DNA from: a virus
Direction: 5' to 3' (one strand)
DNA: 46,173 nt
Virus record (IMG/VR): IMGVR_UViG_3300043446_001882
Location: 1-46,173 of that record
Shown piece by piece: positions 4,856 through 25,919 of the stretch. The translations under genes were made by a program, and so were the position numbers. Under the pieces are notes generated by a model that was not told the DNA's origin, searched no databases, and worked only from the letters and a program-made list of their open reading frames with translations. Each line of letters opens with the position of its first letter. Position 1 is the first letter of the stretch.

Positions 4856-7800
4856 ATGCTCTACCGACTGCAATTTCAATTAATGCAAAAGTATTTTCTT
4901 CTGTTGCAGTAAAGTTTTCCAACGATCTTCCTACTACGCTACCAACAGCTGGAGTTTTCGATACTTGTAACAATCCACCCGGAGCACTAACTAACATATC
5001 CCCTTTACCCACTGGACCTGTTACTTTAGCAGGAACCCTGCCTTGTAGTGCTACAATGGCTCTGTATTCAGTTTCTAAATCAGAATTCATTAAGTATGCA
5101 GGTTTTTCTGATATAACACCTGCAACTCTTGTATCCATATAAGAATCGCTGATTGTAACTTCTTGTTCTCCACCAAATACTACCACAGTGCCTGTTTCGT
5201 ATAAATTATCAGCTTTGTAAACCTCTGCAAGGTCAGCGTATTGAGCGCTGGTAGCTGTACCAACAAATCTACCGCTGATAACGTTTCCGCTACTACCACC
5301 AAGAACAGTTAAGTTTCCAATAGACGGTATATACCTGAGACCTGGATCATCTGAATATACTGTTTGTATTGTTCCCACTGCTGGTACAAGAACAGGATAA
5401 AAAGTACTAGCACTTGATGTATCTGTAGCATTTAATTGCGTAGTAGATCCCGATCCGCTTGGTCCTTGTGGTCCTTGTGGTCCAGTTGGTCCTTGTGGTC
5501 CAGCCACCGAACTTGGAGTTCCTTGCGGTCCTTGTGGTCCTTGTGGTCCCTGTGGTCCAGCCACCGAACTTGGAGTTCCTTGCGGTCCTTGTGGTCCTTG
5601 TGGTCCGCGTGGTCCTTGTGGTCCTTGTGGTCCTTGAACTCCACCTATCCCAACGCCAGTTGGTCCTTGTGGTCCTTGCGGTCCTTGTGGGCCTTGTGGT
5701 CCTTGTGGTCCACTGGCCCCTACACCTTGTGGTCCTTGTGGTCCGGTTGGTCCTTGTGGTCCAGCTACCGAACTTGGACTTCCTTGTGGTCCTTGTGGTC
5801 CTTGTGGTCCTTGTGTACCAACACCTTGTGGTCCCTGTGGTCCCTGTGGTCCTTGTGGCCCAGGCACTGCGCTACCATTTCCGCTTGGACCTTGTGGTCC
5901 TTGCGGTCCGGTTGGTCCTTGCGGTCCTTGTGTGCCAACACCTTGTGGTCCTTGTGGCCCGCGTGGTCCTTGTGGCCCTGCATTACCAATTGGTCCTTGT
6001 GGTCCTTGTGGTCCAGTTGCACCAACAGCTCCGTTTAAGTTTACTGTCCATGCACTATAAGTTCCAGAGCCAACTGCTGTATCTATGCTAGCTACGAAAG
6101 CACCTGTCCCAGATGTGTAACTGGACACTGAACCAATCATATAGTTGGTGCCATCATAACTAATCAATATAGTTTGGCCCGAAGTATAAGCTAATCCTGT
6201 GCCAACCGTTAATGATTTGGTTCCTGTGCCAATAGTCAGACTTGTACTGCTTGTAGTTGTATATTTGTCCCCTGGGCCTTGCGGGCCTTGTGGTCCAGTT
6301 GGTCCTTGTGGACCTTGTGGTCCTGTTTGACCTTGTGGTCCCTGTGGTCCTTGCGGTCCACGTGGGCCTTGAGTACCTTGTGGGCCTTGTGCGCCTTGCG
6401 GTCCAGGAGCACCGTTCTGATTAATTGTCCAAGAACTATAAGTACCAGTCCCAACTATAGCATCAATATTCACAACCATAGCGCCGGTGCCCGAATCGTA
6501 GGACGTTACCGAACCTGTCATGTACTGTGTTGATGTATAAGAAATAATAATTGGTTGACCAGGTGTCCACGCCAATCCTGTTGTAACTGTTAAAGATTTA
6601 CTTCCGGTTGTAATACCCAGCGATGAAGTACTAGTTCCTTGATAAGTATCTCCTCGATTTCCTTGTGGACCCTGTGGACCTTGTGCGCCTTGTGGTCCAA
6701 GTTGTCCTTGTGGGCCTTGTGGGCCTTGTGGTCCTTGTGGCCCGGTTGGACCTTGTGGACCGCGTGGACCTTGTGGTCCTTGTGAACCTAGATCACCAGT
6801 TGCTGTAATAGTCCATGCAGATTGCGACCCTGAACCTGTATTGTAATCTACGTTAACTATGAATGTTGTTGAAGAATACGAAGTAATTAAGCCTTCCATA
6901 TAGTTTGATGGAAGAGTTGTGTAAGCAATTCTTACACGTTGACCAACAGTGAAAGCAGACGATGTAGAAGCTGCACTAACTGTCCAAGTTTTGCTACCAG
7001 TACCAAAAGTATTAGATGATGTAGATGTTAGTGAATTATAACCAATACCTTGTGGACCTTGTGGACCTTGAATTCCACCGATACCGCCTGGTCCTTGTGG
7101 TCCTTGTGCTCCTTGTGGTCCTTGTGCTCCTTGTGGTCCTGTATTGCCTTGTGGTCCTTGAGCGCCTTGTGGTCCAGTATTACCGATTGGACCTTGTGGT
7201 CCTTGTGGTCCAGTATTACCGATTGGACCTTGTGGTCCTTGTGCGCCTTGAACTCCCTGCGGACCTTGTGGTCCTTGTGGTCCTTGTGCGCCTTGAACTC
7301 CCTGCGGACCTTGTGGTCCTTGTGGGCCTGTTGGCCCTTGTGGACCTTGAACACCAGCCGGGCCTGAAGGACCAGCAGCTCCAGTTAACGAAATAGTCCA
7401 AGATGTATAAGTTCCAGAACCAGTCGTTGTAGTCACATTAACTACTAATGCCCCTGTTCCAGAATTGTAACTTGTAATAGTGCCTTGCATGGTGTTGCTA
7501 GCATCATACACTATGTTAACAACTTGACCTACAGCTAAAGCTAATCCTGTTCCTACAGTAAGACTCTTACTGCCAGTACCGATTGTCAAACTATTAGTGC
7601 TGGTAGTAGTATACTTGTCGCCCGCAAGTCCTTGTGGTCCTTGTGGTCCTTGTGGTCCTTGAACTCCTGTTGGTCCTTGTGGTCCAGTTGTTCCTTGTGG
7701 TCCTTGTGGTCCGACTGTTCCTTGTGGGCCTTGTGGTCCTTGTGGGCCCTGTGGTCCTTGTGGTCCCTGAGCACCTTGTGGTCCTCGTGGACCTTGTGTA

Positions 7801-10061
7801 CCCTGTGGCCCAGTTACTCCTTGCGGTCCTTGTGGTCCAGTTGGTCCTTGTGGTCCAGGAACACTACTGTCTGCTCCTGTTGGTCCTTGTGGTCCTTGTG
7901 GTCCTTGTGGGCCTTGACTTCCTTGTGGACCTGTTCCACCAGGGCCCGGACTTCCTGCAGGTCCTTGTGGCCCTTGTGGTCCTAAATTACCAATTGGACC
8001 TTGTGGACCTTGTGGTCCCTGTGGTCCTTGTACTCCCTGTGGTCCTTGTGGTCCTTGTGTACCAACACCTTGTGGTCCCTGTGGTCCCTGTGGCCCAGTA
8101 TTACCGATTGGACCTTGTGGTCCTTGTGCTCCAAAACCAGTTGGTCCTTGTGGGCCTTGTGCTCCCGGAACTCCAGACGGTCCTTGTGGACCTTGTGAGC
8201 CAATACCAGTTGGTCCTTGTGGACCTTGTGGACCTTGTGGTCCAGTTGGTCCTTGTGGACCTTGTGCGCCCGGGGCACCTTGTGGTCCTTGAACTCCTGT
8301 TGGGCCTTGTGGTCCAATTGGACCAATTGGACCTGACGGTCCTTGTGGACCTGATGGACCTGATGGACCGCGTGGACCCTGTGGGCCTGATGTTCCTTGT
8401 GGTCCTTGTGGTCCCGATGGTCCTTGTGGACCCTGTGGACCAACTGCTCTAACTCCATTTGAATAAAAGTAATCAGTAGCAAATACACCGTTAGGAGCAA
8501 ATACAACAACGTTTGGTACTCCTCTAATAGAAGAAGTAACATTACCATTGGCATAAACTATTACATTACTATTACCATTAATTAAACTAGTGCCGCCTGG
8601 AAGACCAGATAATAATGCACCATTTCCTAAGAAATAGCTTCCAGACACATTACCTGCTACTGTAAGAGCGTTAGCAGATTTTTCAAATGTAAATCCTGAA
8701 CTAGTACCAAGTTGTCCTGCATCATTAAATTGAACTTGGTTATTTGCGCCTGCTGCTGCGGCAACAATAAATGTTTGACCTGCACTTAGATATCTAATAT
8801 CAACAACTGGATCTGTTAAAGTCAGATTAGACGTAAATGTTATTATATTTGCATTTACTGTGTAATCTACATTTGGCTGTAAAAAATCATTTCCTTTTAT
8901 AACCAATAATCCTACTGCTGTTGTAGAATTAGTTAAAGGATATGATGCGCTGTTATTTCCTGAAATTGTTTGTTGGCCGATTAAACCTGCTACAGGAATC
9001 CATTGTGTTCCGTTATAATATTCAATTATAGTAGTGTCACTATTATATCGAACTGCGCCAGGTGTAGTAATACTAGATCTGTCTCCAGTGCTTCCGACTG
9101 GCAATCCTAGCGCACCTGCTGTTTGAATATTAACTAATTTTGTAGTTCCCGGAGCTAAGTTAAGATTGGCAGTTGTACTTAAAGTAGAAATAGTGTTGCC
9201 ACTGATGTTAATGCCGCCTACATTTGCTACATTAATATTTGCTCTTGGTATTGGTTGTAAATTTCCAAGAACTGTATTTTGAATACCGCCGCCTGCCCAT
9301 AAAGTGGTACCAAAAGTACCACTGTAGTTAACTGTTAATCCGTTAGCAGTCAAGTTACCTGTAACAATAACATCGTTGCCAAAAAATGCGCTGCCATTGA
9401 CATTTAAATTGCCGCCAAAATTACCATTACCATTGGCGCTGACGTTGCCACCAAAATTACCGTTGCCGTTGGCATTTACATTACCGCCAAAGTTTCCGCT
9501 TCCGTTGGCATTTACATTGCCACCAAAATTACCGTTGCCGTTCGCGCTTACATTACCACCAAAGTTACCATTACCATTAGCACTGACATTACCGCCGAAA
9601 TTACCATTACCATTAGCACTGACATTACCACCGAAACTTCCATTGCCATTAGCATTTACATTGCCACCAAATAATCCATCTCCGTTGGCTCTTATGCCTT
9701 GACCGAATATGCCTTCTCCATTGGCTTGTACGTTACCACCAAATAATCCACTGCCATTGGCTTGTACGTTACCACCAAATAATCCACTGCCATTGGCCTG
9801 AATATTTCCACCAAAAAATCCGCCACCGTTCGCAACAACATTACCGCCAAACAGTCCCGAGCTAACAACGTCGGCTGCGTTTGCCCAACGACGAGTACCG
9901 TCTATATTACCAACAAGTACGTAAGTATTACCTGCAGGTAATCCAAGATCTGGTTCTGCATTTTGAAGGTCTAGGTACGTATATCTGCCAGGATCAGCAT
10001 TGGCACTTGGTGTTTTCGGGACTCTCCCGCTTACAATGTTATCGCTTATCTTTTTAGACAT
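4854..10061 (-). CDS. Collagen-like tail fibre protein, 1735 aa
   Basis: Domains in order: N-terminal attachment part (1-74); thirteen 12-residue repeats of the pattern V-x-ANGxGxFGGN (about 75-230); a beta-rich section with [14 protein letters not shown] (about 230-535); a long collagen-like Gly-Pro-Gln region (about 540-1535) broken by four related modules of about 80 residues; and a C-terminal domain of about 200 residues with [20 protein letters not shown], seen at the end of many marine phage fibres and somewhat like the Peptidase_G2 chaperone region. Collagen-like Gly-x-y tracts form trimeric rods in phage fibres. The repeats are near-identical in DNA (GGTCCTTGTGGTCC), so repeat number could change by recombination or be misassembled. 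Function as a fibre is strongly supported; autoproteolysis of the C-terminus is only possible. Confidence 0.88.
5453..8450 (-). repeat. Collagen-coding short tandem repeats with four module insertions
   Basis: Nine-base units coding Gly-Pro-Gln and variants run through this stretch. They are interrupted at about 6022-6268, 6414-6655, 6794-7045 and 7380-7623 by related modules of about 80 residues with the shared pattern [10 protein letters not shown]...GQ...I.Y....M.G.ITSY.SGTGA, ending W-T-I/V. Antisense and shifted frames stay open here only because of the repeat. Confidence 0.85.
9372..9839 (-). repeat. Thirteen tandem 36-base repeats
   Basis: The repeats code the 12-residue unit V-x-ANGxGxFGGN at the N-terminal side of the collagen-like fibre. 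The central units ([12 protein letters not shown]) are identical in protein and nearly identical in DNA; the outer ones have drifted, as expected for growth by unequal recombination in the middle of the array. Confidence 0.85.
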
Positions 10062-17871: not shown

Positions 17872-19587
17872 TTATAGGCCTGGTGGTGCTGGTGCTGCGG
17901 CTGCGCCAGCACCGGGTGGAGGTACTGCACCTTCGGGTGCTGCACCTTCAGGTGACTCGCCTTGACCTGGTTCGGGTAATTGAGCTGCTGCTTCTAAATC
18001 AGTATCTAAACCACCAGGGGTAATACCAACACTGCGAAGTCCTGCATCGGATGCCGGAGCTTTATCAATATCTCCTTGTTCCTCTGCCCACATGCGTTCA
18101 TTTTCAACCATTTCTTCTTCAGTTAAGCCTAGATATCTAGTTAATAAAAATCGTTTACTCAAATAAGGATAAGCTTCTAATTGTACAAATGATCCTATTC
18201 TTGATTGGTCCACTTCTGCTTGTCGGTAACTAGCAAAGTTTTGAGGTTCATTAAATTGCAATTCAAATAAATTATTATCAATGTTAATACCTCTCCAACG
18301 TAAGAATAATTTAAATTCTTGATCTAATTTTTCACAGATCATACGTTGCAAACGCATACAGTATTGATTAAAACGCCATTCCTGAATTAATGCTGTGCCC
18401 ACTCTACCATCACTGAATGAGTTAGGATTGCTAGTTCCATCATCTAAACCTGTGGGCAAATAACTAGCTGGGATACGTAAACCTCTGAATAACTTATTAG
18501 TAAAGAAGTGCAAATCCGTAATTTCGCCTAGATTACTACCACCTGGCAATGTATCAACTTTGCTGCCGCGACCCTCTGCTGTTTGCGGGAAAAAGTAATC
18601 TTCATTAGTGCTCAGTGGATTATAAGTTGCATCCATCATATTTTGCCCGCCACCAGTTTGAGTTGGAATACGTCGCTGATGAACTTCGTTTTTGACACGT
18701 TCCACAAATGCCATAGCCATGTGGCTGGGCATATTACCTACGTCAATATAAAAAATGCGGCGTTCTGGAGCACGTTGTACACGATAGATAATGATAGCAT
18801 CTTCAAGCAATTCTTTTTGTTTGAATACTTTAAACACATTTTCTAGTACACTGTTACCAAAAGGCCAACTAAAATCTAAACCTTCTGTCAATGTTAAATG
18901 AACAATATGTTCAGAGTTAACAGCTACTTCATTTTGAGCATGACTAAATCTACTACCGCCGCCATATGGATTTTTAGGTTGTATGTACGCTCCACTGCCA
19001 CCACCCACCTGTGGGTGATTGACGTTTACATCACTGGTATTAATGGTAGTTGCTGTTAAATTTTCAAAATTAGGTGCAATGTCTTTGACAATATACTGTT
19101 CTGGCTTCTTTCCTTCTGCCTCATTTACAATAATTTTAACGACTTTGCTCATTTCTACCCAAAACAATTTAAATGTTTCTGGGTCACGTATAAACACTTG
19201 ATCTCCGTATTTTATAGTATTACGGAACATTTTAAAAATTCTTTTGTTAAGATCATTCAAACTAACCCATTGAGTTAATTGTTCTCGAATAATTTTAACT
19301 TCGTTATCTGTGGGTTTTTCTTTCCAATAAAATTTAAATGCAGTACCGTTTTCATCATTGGCTTGAGTGCTAAATTCGCTTAGAATATCCAAGGCAGCAT
19401 TAACTTCACTGTCCATGTCCATTTGTTCATATTGATTATAACGCTCGATACGATTCGGATGCCCTATATAAACTTCTGGCAAGTTGCTTTGATAGTTCCT
19501 ATAGGTAAAATTTTGCCCTTGTGAGCCGTTAATTGGACTCACAGCGCCTGCAACATTGGCTACTTTAAAATATTTTTTCCACGCCAT
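17872..19587 (-). CDS. 20: Portal vertex protein gp20, 571 aa
   Basis: Forms the dodecameric portal through which DNA is packaged and nucleates head assembly. Diagnostic strings are RAPERRIFYIDVGNMPS, LPGGSNLGEITDLHFFTNKL, FRGLRIPASYLP and QEWRFNQYCMRLQRMICEKL, all typical of gp20 in T4-like phages. Length is close to T4 gp20 (524 aa); the extra residues include a Pro/Ala/Gly-rich low-complexity tail (about 530-571). The gene is first of the head cluster 20-core-21-22-23. An inverted repeat centred on GTAAATAC lies upstream (19603-19618). Confidence 0.95.
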   Translation of the reverse strand: MAWKKYFKVANVAGAVSPINGSQGQNFTYRNYQSNLPEVYIGHPNRIERYNQYEQMDMDSEVNAALDILSEFSTQANDENGTAFKFYWKEKPTDNEVKIIREQLTQWVSLNDLNKRIFKMFRNTIKYGDQVFIRDPETFKLFWVEMSKVVKIIVNEAEGKKPEQYIVKDIAPNFENLTATTINTSDVNVNHPQVGGGSGAYIQPKNPYGGGSRFSHAQNEVAVNSEHIVHLTLTEGLDFSWPFGNSVLENVFKVFKQKELLEDAIIIYRVQRAPERRIFYIDVGNMPSHMAMAFVERVKNEVHQRRIPTQTGGGQNMMDATYNPLSTNEDYFFPQTAEGRGSKVDTLPGGSNLGEITDLHFFTNKLFRGLRIPASYLPTGLDDGTSNPNSFSDGRVGTALIQEWRFNQYCMRLQRMICEKLDQEFKLFLRWRGINIDNNLFELQFNEPQNFASYRQAEVDQSRIGSFVQLEAYPYLSKRFLLTRYLGLTEEEMVENERMWAEEQGDIDKAPASDAGLRSVGITPGGLDTDLEAAAQLPEPGQGESPEGAAPEGAVPPPGAGAAAAPAPPGL

Positions 19588-21786: not shown

Positions 21787-22629
21787 ATGGCAAATAGTAC
21801 AAATCCATTGGCAAAACATTTTAGGCAAGCACAATTATACCTAAAATTGCCCAGTCAAGGACGTTGGTATCCTCCAGGTAGCTTAGAAATGCCTGTTACC
21901 GGAGAACTACCTGTTTTTCCAATGACTGCCAAAGATGAGCTAATATTAAAAACCCCAGATGCTTTATTAAATGGGCAAAGCACCGTTGAAGTAATTCAAA
22001 GTTGTGTTCCTGCCATCAAAGATGCATGGAAAATGCCTTCTATTGATTTGGATGCAGTTTTAATAGCTATCAGACATGCTACATATGGCACTGGTATGGA
22101 CTTTGTCAGTGTTTGTCCCCACTGCAAGAGAAAAAATGAAAATACTGTAGATTTAAGCGTATTGTCTGGTCAAATTACATGTCCAGATTTTGAATCAACA
22201 ATTAAAGTAGAAGGGTTGGAAATTTATCTTAGACCTCAGACTTATCAACAATTCAACAAAGCCAGTTTAGAAAATTATGAACAACAAAGGTTGCTGGCTG
22301 TGGTCAACGATAATTCATTGAGCGAAGAAGAAAAACTAAGTCAATTTAATAATGTATTCAAAAGATTGCTTAATTTAACTGTAGAACAAGTCAGTAAAAG
22401 TGTGGCTGCAATTAAAACAGAAGAAGGCGTGTTAGTCGAAGATGAATCCCAACTTCATGATTTTTTCCAAAACTGTAATAAAACTGTGTGGGATGCAGTA
22501 AAGACTAAGTTAGAAAGCTTTGGGGATCAAAGTCCATTGAAAAAAGTACCAGTGGTCTGTGAGCACGAAGACTGCGCCAAGGCCTACGAAACACCATTGG
22601 TATTTGAACAATCAAGTTTTTTCGTATAA
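21787..22629 (+). CDS. 26: Baseplate hub assembly protein gp26, 280 aa
   Basis: Belongs to the T4 baseplate protein family that includes gp26. Seen: LYLKLPSQGRWYPPGSL, LPVFPMTAKDELILKTPDAL, LNGQSTVEVIQSCVPAIKDA and RHATYGTGMDFVSVCPHCKR, all conserved in T4-like hub genes. Cys110 and Cys113 (CPHC) with a later TCPDFE and C-terminal CEHEDC pairs suggest a zinc site. T4 gp26 is 208 aa, so this is longer at the C-terminus. It is followed after five bases by gp51, another hub factor. The pair stands alone on the plus strand between two minus-strand blocks. Confidence 0.88.
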   Translation: MANSTNPLAKHFRQAQLYLKLPSQGRWYPPGSLEMPVTGELPVFPMTAKDELILKTPDALLNGQSTVEVIQSCVPAIKDAWKMPSIDLDAVLIAIRHATYGTGMDFVSVCPHCKRKNENTVDLSVLSGQITCPDFESTIKVEGLEIYLRPQTYQQFNKASLENYEQQRLLAVVNDNSLSEEEKLSQFNNVFKRLLNLTVEQVSKSVAAIKTEEGVLVEDESQLHDFFQNCNKTVWDAVKTKLESFGDQSPLKKVPVVCEHEDCAKAYETPLVFEQSSFFV

Positions 22630-22853: not shown

Positions 22854-22909
22854 GATGTGCTACGCACATCTATCACTTTCGCTATCGCTCAGTGATTAAT
22901 TTTTTTTTT
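22854..22909 (+). terminator. Tandem hairpins with T-run after gp51
   Basis: A 7-bp stem GATGTGC-TAC-GCACATC (22854-22870) starts at the base after the gp51 stop. A second stem ATCACT/AGTGAT (22872-22877, 22891-22896) is followed by a run of ten Ts (22900-22909). Together they look like the end of the gp26-gp51 transcript. The second hairpin competes with TCGCT-CGCTC / GAGCG-AGCGA (22879-22890, 22912-22922). Confidence 0.65.
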
Positions 22910-23281
22910 AAGAGCGCAGCGATTTAAGTTTCATCCAGATTAATCGGTCACACTTTGCCCGCACAGGGCAAAGAAATGAGTGAGCTTCATCCGAGTAGCA
23001 CAGTCACTTAGCGTTACAACATTACAGAGGCGGTTGTCCGGTACCTCGAGTTGCGTCTTATCACAACGGCGGGTTTATATCTATACGCTAACATACATAT
23101 AAACCGTGTAGCATCACTGCTACGTCTTTTCAGCCTTTAATCCTATTCAAACAACCAAATTGCGGCATTGGCAATCATCATCCTTTCGGGTAGTGGTTGA
23201 GTGCTCACTAGCACGGTGAGTCTTCCATCCCTGCGATCCGAGATCCAGGTGTAGGGCACATGAAGTTGACCTGTGCGAGTC
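22854..23281. other. Gene-free, G+C-rich region with dense inverted repeats; possible structured RNA
   Basis: No credible reading frame was found. Hand counts give 30/60 (22981-23040), 32/60 (23161-23220) and 33/60 (23221-23280) G+C, against 15/60 in the neighbouring gene (23521-23580). Stems include CTTTGCCC/GGGCAAAG (22953-22973), GGTTTATAT/ATATAAACC (23072-23105), GTAGCA/TGCTAC (23108-23123), CTCAC/GTGAG (23204-23220) and GCACA/TGTGC (23256-23276). G+C-rich islands in A+T-rich genomes often mark structured RNA. I see no tRNA, tmRNA, RNase P or group I intron core that I can identify. The strand is unresolved: the region lies between convergent genes. Confidence 0.5.
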
Positions 23282-23716
23282 TTAGATGCTTAGTTTGCCT
23301 TTTATATGGGAGCCATGAATACGGCAATTAATTATGCCGTTATAATAATCGTCTGATTCTAATACACGCCTGGTAAATTGTTCTCTTGCCTCAACATAAC
23401 TACATTCTGCTTTTGAATTACAATAATAAAGTATTTCTCTGGTAAAATTTTCAGCCCCTAATTGTTCTATGTCTTTTTTTAATTCAGGACTTGATCCATA
23501 ATAATCTCTCCAGTCACTGTCGATTTTTGAGCGAATTTTCTTTTTCTTTTTAGTGCCGTTTTTTAATTTTACTGTTTTTTGAGTAGTTTTTGCGAACTTT
23601 GCCAGTTTTTTGCCTATGTATTTTTTGCCTGTGATGTTATTTGTGATGATGTAAACGAATCCAACACAATCTTCGGGTAAAGATTCTATTAGAGTTTGTT
23701 GATAGAGCCATGTCAT
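23282..23716 (-). CDS. SegE-like GIY-YIG endonuclease, 144 aa
   Basis: The N-terminal half carries a GIY-YIG core: GFVYIITNNITGKKYIGKKL (residues 19-38). Downstream come DSDWRDYYGSSPELKKDI and the probable metal-binding glutamate in YVEAREQF, followed by YYN. This matches the SegE-type GIY-YIG proteins common in T4-like phages, small nucleases related to homing enzymes. A Lys-rich insert (KLKNGTKKKKKIRSK) may contact DNA. The gene starts 12 bases after the radical-SAM gene and closes the operon, next to the structured region. It is strongly A+T-rich. Whether it cuts DNA or acts as a mobile element is unknown. Confidence 0.82.
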   Translation of the reverse strand: MTWLYQQTLIESLPEDCVGFVYIITNNITGKKYIGKKLAKFAKTTQKTVKLKNGTKKKKKIRSKIDSDWRDYYGSSPELKKDIEQLGAENFTREILYYCNSKAECSYVEAREQFTRRVLESDDYYNGIINCRIHGSHIKGKLSI

Positions 23717-23728
23717 TGTACATACTAA

Positions 23729-24961
23729 TTATGCCTTAAAGTTTGTTTTAAAATATTTTGCTATATCTGGTTGATCTAGCCAGCCCCATAATGAAAGTTT
23801 TTGATAAAGTTTTTCAGTCAATGTTGGATTATTTGGTTGTAATAGTGCCGTGATGATTGATTTTATTTCGTTGTCTATATGTTGTTTAAACCAAGTTGGG
23901 TCCCTGGGATTGCTGTTTATCGGAGCAGGATCACTGTGAACCCATTTATTATATTGTTCAATTAAGTTTTCTTTGATATCTGTGGGTAATTGAGAAATCT
24001 GCAGATAATCAGGTCTAGTTAAAATATTAGTCATTACATCTAATTTTCTACTTATACACCACTTATATAAGTCATCCAACGTGTGTACACTTAATGCGCT
24101 AGGAACAGGTCGTACTGTGACGTAAACATGCCCTTCTTTTCGATGTTTTAAATATAAATCGATGTTATCTAATACTAGTTGTGTGTTAGATCCTTGTCTA
24201 ATTAGATCATTTAACGTGCCCATGCATTCTATGCTAATACCTACATCTACATGTCTAAATGCATTAAGTTTTTCCATTAGACTTTGATTAAAAATTGTGC
24301 CATTAGTAGTGAACCCTAGATAGATGTCAGTTTTGTTTGCCTTAAGTAATTGATCTATTAGATTTTCAAATTTTGGATTTAATAAAGTTTCACCGCCTAT
24401 CAAATGGACAAATTTTAAATTTGGTGTATTGCAAATAGTTGAAACTACGTGATTCCATGCAGCTTCGTCTTCGGTCCAATTCATTCTAGCAGGCCCATTA
24501 TAAGTACCTGCTTTAATTTCTGCCACAGCAATTTTACTACTAGCAGTGGGCCCGCAAATTCTGCAAGCCAGATTACATTCATTACCCAAACTTATGTGGT
24601 AGCTATTAATGGTTGGTTTTAAATTTTGAAAATAATCTTTATCAAACGTTTCATAAAACCGTAAAGGCTGAATATCACTTCTAAGATTTTCTCTGACACG
24701 TTTACTAACAGATCCAATTGATTCTTCATGATAACACATGCCGCACAAAGGTTCACTGACCCCATTTAGTTTATTATGCCTTGCAATTTCTTGATGCTGC
24801 CCCACGACCCACTCATCAATAGTCATTGAATGTACATTATATTTTTTTGCTTCTGGAGTTCCGCTGATTCTGTTAGGCTGGGCGCCGCAAGAATGATAGG
24901 TTCCGTCTGCATTAATATGCACTTCGAACCATGGCACTGTGCAAAATATTTTATCTATCAT
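23729..24961 (-). CDS. Radical SAM protein with N-terminal twitch domain, 410 aa
   Basis: Residues 1-95 look like a twitch (auxiliary iron-sulfur) domain: FCTVPWFEVHINADGTYHSC with Cys7 and Cys25, then PLCGMC with Cys73 and Cys76. The radical SAM cluster motif is CNLACRIC (Cys129, Cys133, Cys136), followed by HLIGGETLLNP (189-192, GGE motif) and GFTTNGT. The order twitch then radical SAM matches the N-twitch radical SAM family; substrates are unknown. I place the start at ATG 24961, overlapping the previous stop in ATGATAGATAA. The open frame upstream of it (to 25048) lies inside the neighbouring gene and has no family resemblance. The enzyme should cleave S-adenosylmethionine to make a radical; what it modifies is not known. 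Confidence 0.88.
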   Translation of the reverse strand: MIDKIFCTVPWFEVHINADGTYHSCGAQPNRISGTPEAKKYNVHSMTIDEWVVGQHQEIARHNKLNGVSEPLCGMCYHEESIGSVSKRVRENLRSDIQPLRFYETFDKDYFQNLKPTINSYHISLGNECNLACRICGPTASSKIAVAEIKAGTYNGPARMNWTEDEAAWNHVVSTICNTPNLKFVHLIGGETLLNPKFENLIDQLLKANKTDIYLGFTTNGTIFNQSLMEKLNAFRHVDVGISIECMGTLNDLIRQGSNTQLVLDNIDLYLKHRKEGHVYVTVRPVPSALSVHTLDDLYKWCISRKLDVMTNILTRPDYLQISQLPTDIKENLIEQYNKWVHSDPAPINSNPRDPTWFKQHIDNEIKSIITALLQPNNPTLTEKLYQKLSLWGWLDQPDIAKYFKTNFKA

Positions 24962-25919
24962 CTTTGCACTTAATTTTACAAACGTCCAAAGGCATGACTT
25001 GTAGTCGTAGCATAAACTCTCCCCACAGGCTATCAGCCAAAATTTCATTCAATGAACGAGTTTTTACATTTAATTGATCTTTATATTTTTGTACAAAATC
25101 ATTAGATTGATACCCGCTGTTAAACCAAGGGCAAGGAAAAACTAATCCTTCTACATTAATAAACAGTTCTTTTTTCCAGTTCATGCACCTGGCCCACTCG
25201 TGCCTATCCACTGTGTAATTAAATCTAATGGGAATTTGTCTGTCAGACAGTTTTGCTGTTGTTTGTAAATAAACTTTGCTAGAATTATGATGTTGCTCGT
25301 TCTTTGGTTTTAACGGATCTTGTCCGTCAATGGAATATCTGCCATCGAACTTTGTACTAGAAACTGTTTGTAGAACATCAACGCCCAAACTTTTTGCCAG
25401 TTGTTTTATGTCATCCATTCGATTTTCGTTAAAATTAAAATAGATAGTGCTCCATTTAATAATGCAATTACTGTTCTTTCTCAGTGTTTTAATTCCGGCA
25501 ATAATACTGTCATAGTCACTGTTTACTCTGTATATGTTATTACTGACATTATCCCAACCGTCGACGCTAAACTGTACAGTGTCTTCGTGATTTAACAAAC
25601 TGGCCAATTTCAGCCACCATGATTCTTTTTTGTAACTGCCATTGGTTACAATAAACAATTGAATAAAAAATTGCTTGGCATATTCAACTATTTCCAAAAA
25701 ATCAGTGGCATAAATCGGGTCTCCTATATCTCCACAAAAAATTATTTTTTTAACATTCATTAATGTTTCGGGAGGAAACGCAATTTTAAATTCTTCTATA
25801 GAAAATTCTTGATTTAACGTGCCAGGTTTCAACTCAGTTCTCGGGCATCGAGGGCATTTTAACATGCACTTGCTGCTGACTTCTATATGAAGCTCCTGAG
25901 TATTAAACAATGTCGACAT
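24951..25919 (-). CDS. Radical SAM/SPASM-like protein, 322 aa
   Basis: The radical SAM motif lies near the N-terminus, CMLKCPRC (Cys18, Cys22, Cys25), followed by FCGDIGDPIYATD in the place of the GGE motif and LFIVTNGS. The C-terminus has four cysteines placed as in a SPASM or twitch cluster: Cys245 (ARCMNW), Cys263 (VFPCPWFN), Cys314 and Cys318 (VCKIKC). The domain order (radical SAM then auxiliary cluster) is the reverse of its neighbour, so the two are not simple duplicates. It overlaps the gp46 end by 17 bases and its partner by 11, which suggests coupled translation. SPASM proteins often modify peptides, but no precursor peptide gene is visible nearby. Confidence 0.87.
   Translation of the reverse strand: MSTLFNTQELHIEVSSKCMLKCPRCPRTELKPGTLNQEFSIEEFKIAFPPETLMNVKKIIFCGDIGDPIYATDFLEIVEYAKQFFIQLFIVTNGSYKKESWWLKLASLLNHEDTVQFSVDGWDNVSNNIYRVNSDYDSIIAGIKTLRKNSNCIIKWSTIYFNFNENRMDDIKQLAKSLGVDVLQTVSSTKFDGRYSIDGQDPLKPKNEQHHNSSKVYLQTTAKLSDRQIPIRFNYTVDRHEWARCMNWKKELFINVEGLVFPCPWFNSGYQSNDFVQKYKDQLNVKTRSLNEILADSLWGEFMLRLQVMPLDVCKIKCKDDR

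Follow-up and report, generated by a model that had tools for sequence, protein, structure and literature searches.

The window analysed here is a 46,173-nucleotide (nt) stretch of phage DNA, positions 1 to 46,173 of IMG/VR record IMGVR_UViG_3300043446_001882. It is a fragment of a T4-like phage with a portal gene (17872-19587), a gp26-like gene, a SegE-like gene, two radical SAM genes and a gp46/SbcC-like gene. We were interested in the island at 22854-23281, bordered on one side by the SegE-like GIY-YIG nuclease gene (hereafter segE; 23282-23716, minus strand, PF19835 5e-34) and on the other by the convergent T4 gp26-like baseplate hub gene (21787-22629, plus strand, PF12322 2e-12, phrog_150). 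An earlier note had described this island as a gene-free, G+C-rich stretch with many stems, possibly encoding a new phage RNA, and had proposed covariation analysis on related loci and comparison with RNA family models as checks. No open reading frame (ORF) of at least 50 amino acids was found in 22854-23281, as the note had claimed, and the longest open stretch in any frame was 45 codons. The composition had been described less accurately. The G+C content is raised, with 46% overall (92nd percentile among 428-base windows) against 33% in each flanking gene and 39% in the window, but individual 60-base blocks range from 35 to 62% rather than from 50 to 55%; likewise, the 25% attributed to the neighbouring gene is that of one 60-base block of segE and not of the whole gene. 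Both strands folded better than shuffled sequence (z of -2.9 for the minus strand and -2.7 for the plus strand), in agreement with the stems reported earlier, and comparative data back the minus-strand folds.

An Rfam search of the window returned a single family, RF01718 (Polynucleobacter-1), at 23149-23281 on the minus strand, with 112.1 bits for a gathering cut-off of 37 and 133 bases covering the full model (1-141). This match, well above the cut-off, corresponds to the 5′ domain of the RNA, and the consensus helices of RF01718 covary significantly (23274-23272/23258-23260, 23199-23195/23152-23156, 23173/23161 and others). Polynucleobacter-1 is a computational family of 2010 from Burkholderiales, fresh water and estuary, marked in the table of that study as RNA "y", cis-regulatory "y" and switch "?" (PMC2864571); our literature search found no other paper naming it. 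When IMG/VR was scanned with the RF01718 core, at least 119 stretches were recovered, and these loci remained alignable past the end of RF01718, through the whole island. A second IMG/VR scan used a core of the distal part, designed for variants that most stretches of the first scan lack. It recovered 120 stretches; the majority had not been seen before, and nearly all shared the same architecture. RF01718 was above threshold in 9 of 14 diverse loci of this second scan, and two very divergent loci scored just under it. In total, the two scans yielded more than 200 homologous loci, which are related in sequence here, not unrelated. A covariance model, named R1, was built for the distal domain. 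All 16 large phage contigs with one half of the RNA had the other half as well, once each, adjacent and in the same order. Comparison of these loci shows that the island is kept in place among many relatives. Together with the Rfam match and the covariation described below, they make it near certain that the island is a structured RNA gene of about 440 nt on the minus strand of a T4-like phage (22854-23295, ends approximate, no ORF; conservation and covariation over 74 and 122 aligned loci), of which RF01718 is the 5′ third. The extent given in the earlier note was almost exact, and its word "new" applies to about two thirds of the RNA, since 23281-23149 is already known as RF01718.

For the covariation analysis, 122 representatives with a mean pairwise identity of 62% were aligned, and all 109,746 column pairs were scored by a G-test with background correction (average product correction, APC) against null alignments in which inferred substitutions were placed randomly along the tree. 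A total of 54 column pairs were found at E ≤0.1, most of them standard pairs, spanning 23274 to 22854. Counts over 63 distal-domain sequences gave 94.5% paired cells vs 83.4% in shuffles, and 145 cells with changes on both sides vs 40 in shuffles. The pairing signal collapsed when partners were slid by 1-3 columns, with 44-53% paired after a one-column slide. G-U pairs were frequent when the minus strand was read, and the same pairs are C-A mismatches on the opposite strand, indicating that the RNA is the minus strand.

These comparative data support two pseudoknots and about ten helices in the predicted fold. The two domains are separated by a variable hairpin (GACGUAGCAGUGAUGCUAC in the window, 23107-23125; covarying pair 23122/23109, 71-81% standard pairs in alignment A2). 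It is followed by a hairpin at 23070-23107 (covarying 23104-23097/23073-23080 and 23093/23084, apical pairs 90-100% standard), whose loop is engaged in pseudoknot 2, UUAGCG (23091-23086) with CGCUAA (23013-23008), where 85-98% of pairs are standard, several pair types occur and 23091/23008 is significant. Pseudoknot 1 pairs GUUGU (23067-23063) with ACAAC (23037-23033) in the loop of a GAGG/CCUC stem; 99.3% of its cells are paired, three of its five pairs show two-sided changes and 23065/23035 is significant. A helix at 23054-23050/23020-23016 (96.5% of cells paired, double changes in 5/5 pairs) surrounds a stem at 23047-23044/23030-23027 (90.5% paired, double changes in 1/4 pairs), and two hairpins end the RNA on its 3′ side (22854-22895; covarying 22892/22876, 22891/22877 and 22870-22865/22854-22859). 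Two other features were seen. In the 5′ domain, positions 23190 and 23180 (RNA strand) swap C/U for U/C with a covariation score of 156, neither combination being a standard pair; this is perhaps a conserved C-U mismatch. In the 3′ domain, loci L132, L149, L164 and L190 show a variable insertion of 0-90 nt right after a CCGCC core, which is a long inverted repeat in some loci (TGTTACATAAAGATGACAT...) and AT-rich in others.

The earlier note had also reported two similar cores, each followed by GTCAC. We found them within 1-2 bases of the positions it gave (TTTCATCC at 22929 and CTTCATCC at 22985), with GTCAC at 22947 and 23003. On the RNA strand, these cores read ACUC-GGAUGAA (22996-22986) and AUCU-GGAUGAA (22940-22930) and flank a GCCC/GGGC hairpin (UUUGCCC..GGGCAAA, 22953-22973, 92.6% of cells paired). 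They form a twin motif, copy 1 being X1X2-ACUC-GGAUGAA (22986-22998) and copy 2 X1X2-AUCU-GGAUGAA (22930-22942). The 7-base motif differs between phages and is the same in both copies within each RNA. Its first six bases agree between copies in 149 of 150 unique RNAs, for about 24% expected from motif frequencies, and the pattern used to search for the RNAs did not require equal copies. Six-base variants among the 150 were GGATGA (54), AGATAA (38), GGATAA (23), AGATGA (18), GCATAA (12) and others, and divergent members had new letters in copies that were still identical (GTATGAA, ACATGAA, AGCTGAA, AAAGAAT). Parsimony assigns position X 23 changes in copy 1, 22 in copy 2 and a joint count of 23; the corresponding counts were 11, 11 and 11 for Z, 4, 4 and 4 for Y, and 8, 8 and 8 for W. 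At least 45 changes along the tree were concerted. The four bases directly preceding the motif remain different between copies, indicating that these are not homogenised as a block. We also considered whether the motif could have moved as part of a recombined block; this is unlikely, as X correlates with no column between the copies. As judged from these comparisons, the RNA is an extended form of a known family, with its first third known and the remainder new and bearing a concerted twin motif. It is tempting to propose, at rather less than even confidence, that the copies must be identical whichever letters they carry, these being largely free to vary; such a principle of paired-site recognition or assembly would be new for phage RNA. 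If true, both sites are read at once, by a single partner or through a direct like-with-like contact. The twin motif offers a sharp, testable handle on function.

We then looked for what might read the motif. The X columns covary with each other with a score of 152, the next best column scoring 18, and no internal pairing partner was found among 472 RNA columns. No column of segE, gp26, orf72, gp46, orf701 or the k0 cluster tracked X above background. An antiparallel helix between copies 1 and 2, proposed by RNAalifold, was rejected: the best combination, A in copy 1 with G in copy 2, never occurs. With no covarying third column, no partner gene and the antiparallel helix rejected, either a trans partner or a direct non-canonical contact between copies remains, and we slightly prefer a trans partner reading both copies. 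Covariation of this kind, without base pairing, can reveal partner recognition overlooked by standard RNA searches. Our best explanation, to which we give an even chance, is a scaffold RNA presenting two identical sites to one trans partner. The gp46-(radical SAM)-segE transcript would carry the RNA at its 3′ end, and the RNA would persist as a stable RNA or ribonucleoprotein. In it, the 5′ domain would combine with the pseudoknotted 3′ domain into a rigid scaffold that displays two copies of a 7-base recognition motif, placed on either side of a hairpin. The two copies would have to match the same partner, most likely a phage or host nucleic acid, otherwise a dimeric protein. A shift in the partner sequence would lead both copies to shift, and bound partners could be counted, bridged or sequestered in pairs.

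Several observations weigh against this explanation. A search upstream of the RNA for sigma-70 and T4 late promoters found none. The contigs show no enrichment of motif complements, and in 8 large contigs (51 ortholog groups) the phage's own motif complement occurs in no shared gene, within the null. If each copy paired independently with a trans strand, G-U intermediates in which a single copy has changed should be common, and we saw just one case; such rare intermediates fit better with a direct contact of the copies or a strictly symmetrical reader than with two independent guides. The copies might touch each other directly in parallel, each base facing its like in a non-Watson-Crick pair (G.G, A.A, U.U), either inside a single RNA or between the subunits of a homo-oligomer; the twin motif would then be a tertiary or assembly contact with no third partner. 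Frequent flips with almost no intermediates are what directly touching base pairs would give, the copies are identical position by position in the same order, no third column covaries, and protein-free assembly is known for large phage RNAs, namely GOLLD and ROOL (PMC12286853). Besides the failure of the antiparallel helix, this possibility is weakened by the contact it requires. We know of no precedent for parallel like-with-like pairing over 7 bases that allows all four letters at some positions, and we consider direct contact unlikely, though the most serious of the rivals.

The other alternatives concern the neighbourhood of the RNA. At 179 loci, its upstream neighbour is segE, in the same orientation. 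Most other genuine loci either lie at a contig end or have another ORF in place of segE or between segE and the RNA. Downstream, the neighbour varies and is antisense at about 75 loci, including this window. A T4 late promoter, belonging to the next unit, follows the RNA in 30 of 165 loci. We infer that the RNA is co-transcribed with segE and later processed. This arrangement, with a same-strand RNA lacking a promoter of its own, would also suit a 3′ untranslated region of the gp46-segE operon acting in cis on stability, processing or termination and not in trans. Its size, two pseudoknots and twin constraint go far beyond the needs of such a region, and the RNA is retained where segE is replaced or separated from it by other ORFs (L195, L183, L220, L223, L149), which leaves this explanation improbable, a little below direct contact. 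The same retention where segE is replaced speaks against the RNA being a guide or cofactor of the adjacent GIY-YIG nuclease, an analogy with HEARO/OMEGA RNAs based on the adjacency and shared orientation of the two genes at 179 loci. Moreover, segE columns do not track X, and segE relatives exist in more than 500 isolate phage records, while the four isolate genomes checked have neither half of the RNA; we find a nuclease partnership very improbable. Least credible is a role as riboswitch or cis-regulatory leader controlling the gene that follows, in line with the marking of Weinberg et al. in 2010 (PMC2864571). It is largely refuted by the neighbourhoods, as the following gene is neither constant nor always on the same strand, and where it is, a T4 late promoter often intervenes. 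The packaging or replication site also raised in the earlier note is not needed to account for the island.

The RNA is common among lake phages known from metagenomes, with no recognisable copy in the isolate records searched. In isolate phages, blastn with four family members as queries gave no match, and in the four isolate genomes R1 and RF01718 found neither half. In cellular genomes, the exact core pattern had no match and a loose one had four unrelated matches, none with RF01718. The nearest isolates of the window portal are jumbo T4-like phages such as PA5oct (51% identity). Contig G004 (192 kb), which carries the RNA, encodes, at L267 6863-7271 and 10051-16562, a permuted betaproteobacterial transfer-messenger RNA (tmRNA; RF01850 131.7 bits, RF04321 143.2 bits) beside a cluster of more than 20 transfer RNAs (tRNAs). 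The contig has at least 23 tRNAs, and the host of that phage is, given the tmRNA, plausibly betaproteobacterial. The syntenic gp46-gp26 gap of isolates PA5oct (L255 ~5840-7180; PA5oct 75835-77180), Phosso (L256 5760-6770) and SD-1_S14 (L258 1600-2500) measures from several hundred up to about 1,000 bases, contains no convincing gene and folds unusually well, with z of -2.3, -4.7 and -3.0, respectively. Neither R1 nor RF01718 matched these gaps; they are possibly diverged forms of the RNA, in phages that can be grown.

Other observations were made in the window. The two radical SAM genes between gp46 and segE (23729-25919) overlap, and one of them encodes a SPASM domain; the pair is also present in several relatives. 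phrog_447, which includes this SegE-like protein, is labelled NAD synthetase, a label copied in many cyanophage records, while Pfam indicates a GIY-YIG endonuclease. Finally, 5401-8400 has 46-59% G+C and a strong AT skew within a minus-strand ORF of 1735 amino acids, probably a repetitive fibre gene.

Regarding known systems, HEARO/OMEGA RNAs are structured RNAs adjoining a nuclease gene, and the bridge RNA of IS110 has two loops reading a shared short core. By analogy only, the window RNA resembles them in standing beside a nuclease gene and in its putative paired reading sites, and it differs by its fixed genome position, by having no transposon, IscB or IS110 gene and by the absence of a target among our findings. 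No Rfam match to HEARO/OMEGA or to group I or II introns was obtained in the window, where only RF01718 reaches threshold, and ARAGORN found no tRNA or tmRNA gene there, nor did Rfam. GOLLD and ROOL are, like this RNA, large, phage-encoded, pseudoknotted and non-coding (PMC12286853). At gathering score, their Rfam models matched neither the window nor any of 14 related loci, and a relaxed search of the island gave no match either; the sequences are unrelated, their length is 659 to more than 800 nt vs about 440, and the window RNA adjoins segE instead of lying in a tRNA island. The closest relative is RF01718 itself, the full model of which is matched by the 5′ 133 bases; both are of fresh water, and the betaproteobacterial tmRNA of contig G004 is consistent with Burkholderiales. 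In contrast to the RF01718 model, which ends at 141 nt, the window RNA is about three times longer, occurs in T4-like phages, adds two pseudoknots, the twin motif and terminal hairpins, and, given its variable and often antisense following gene, does not look cis-regulatory. What has been catalogued as an RNA family proves to be one piece of a far larger phage RNA.
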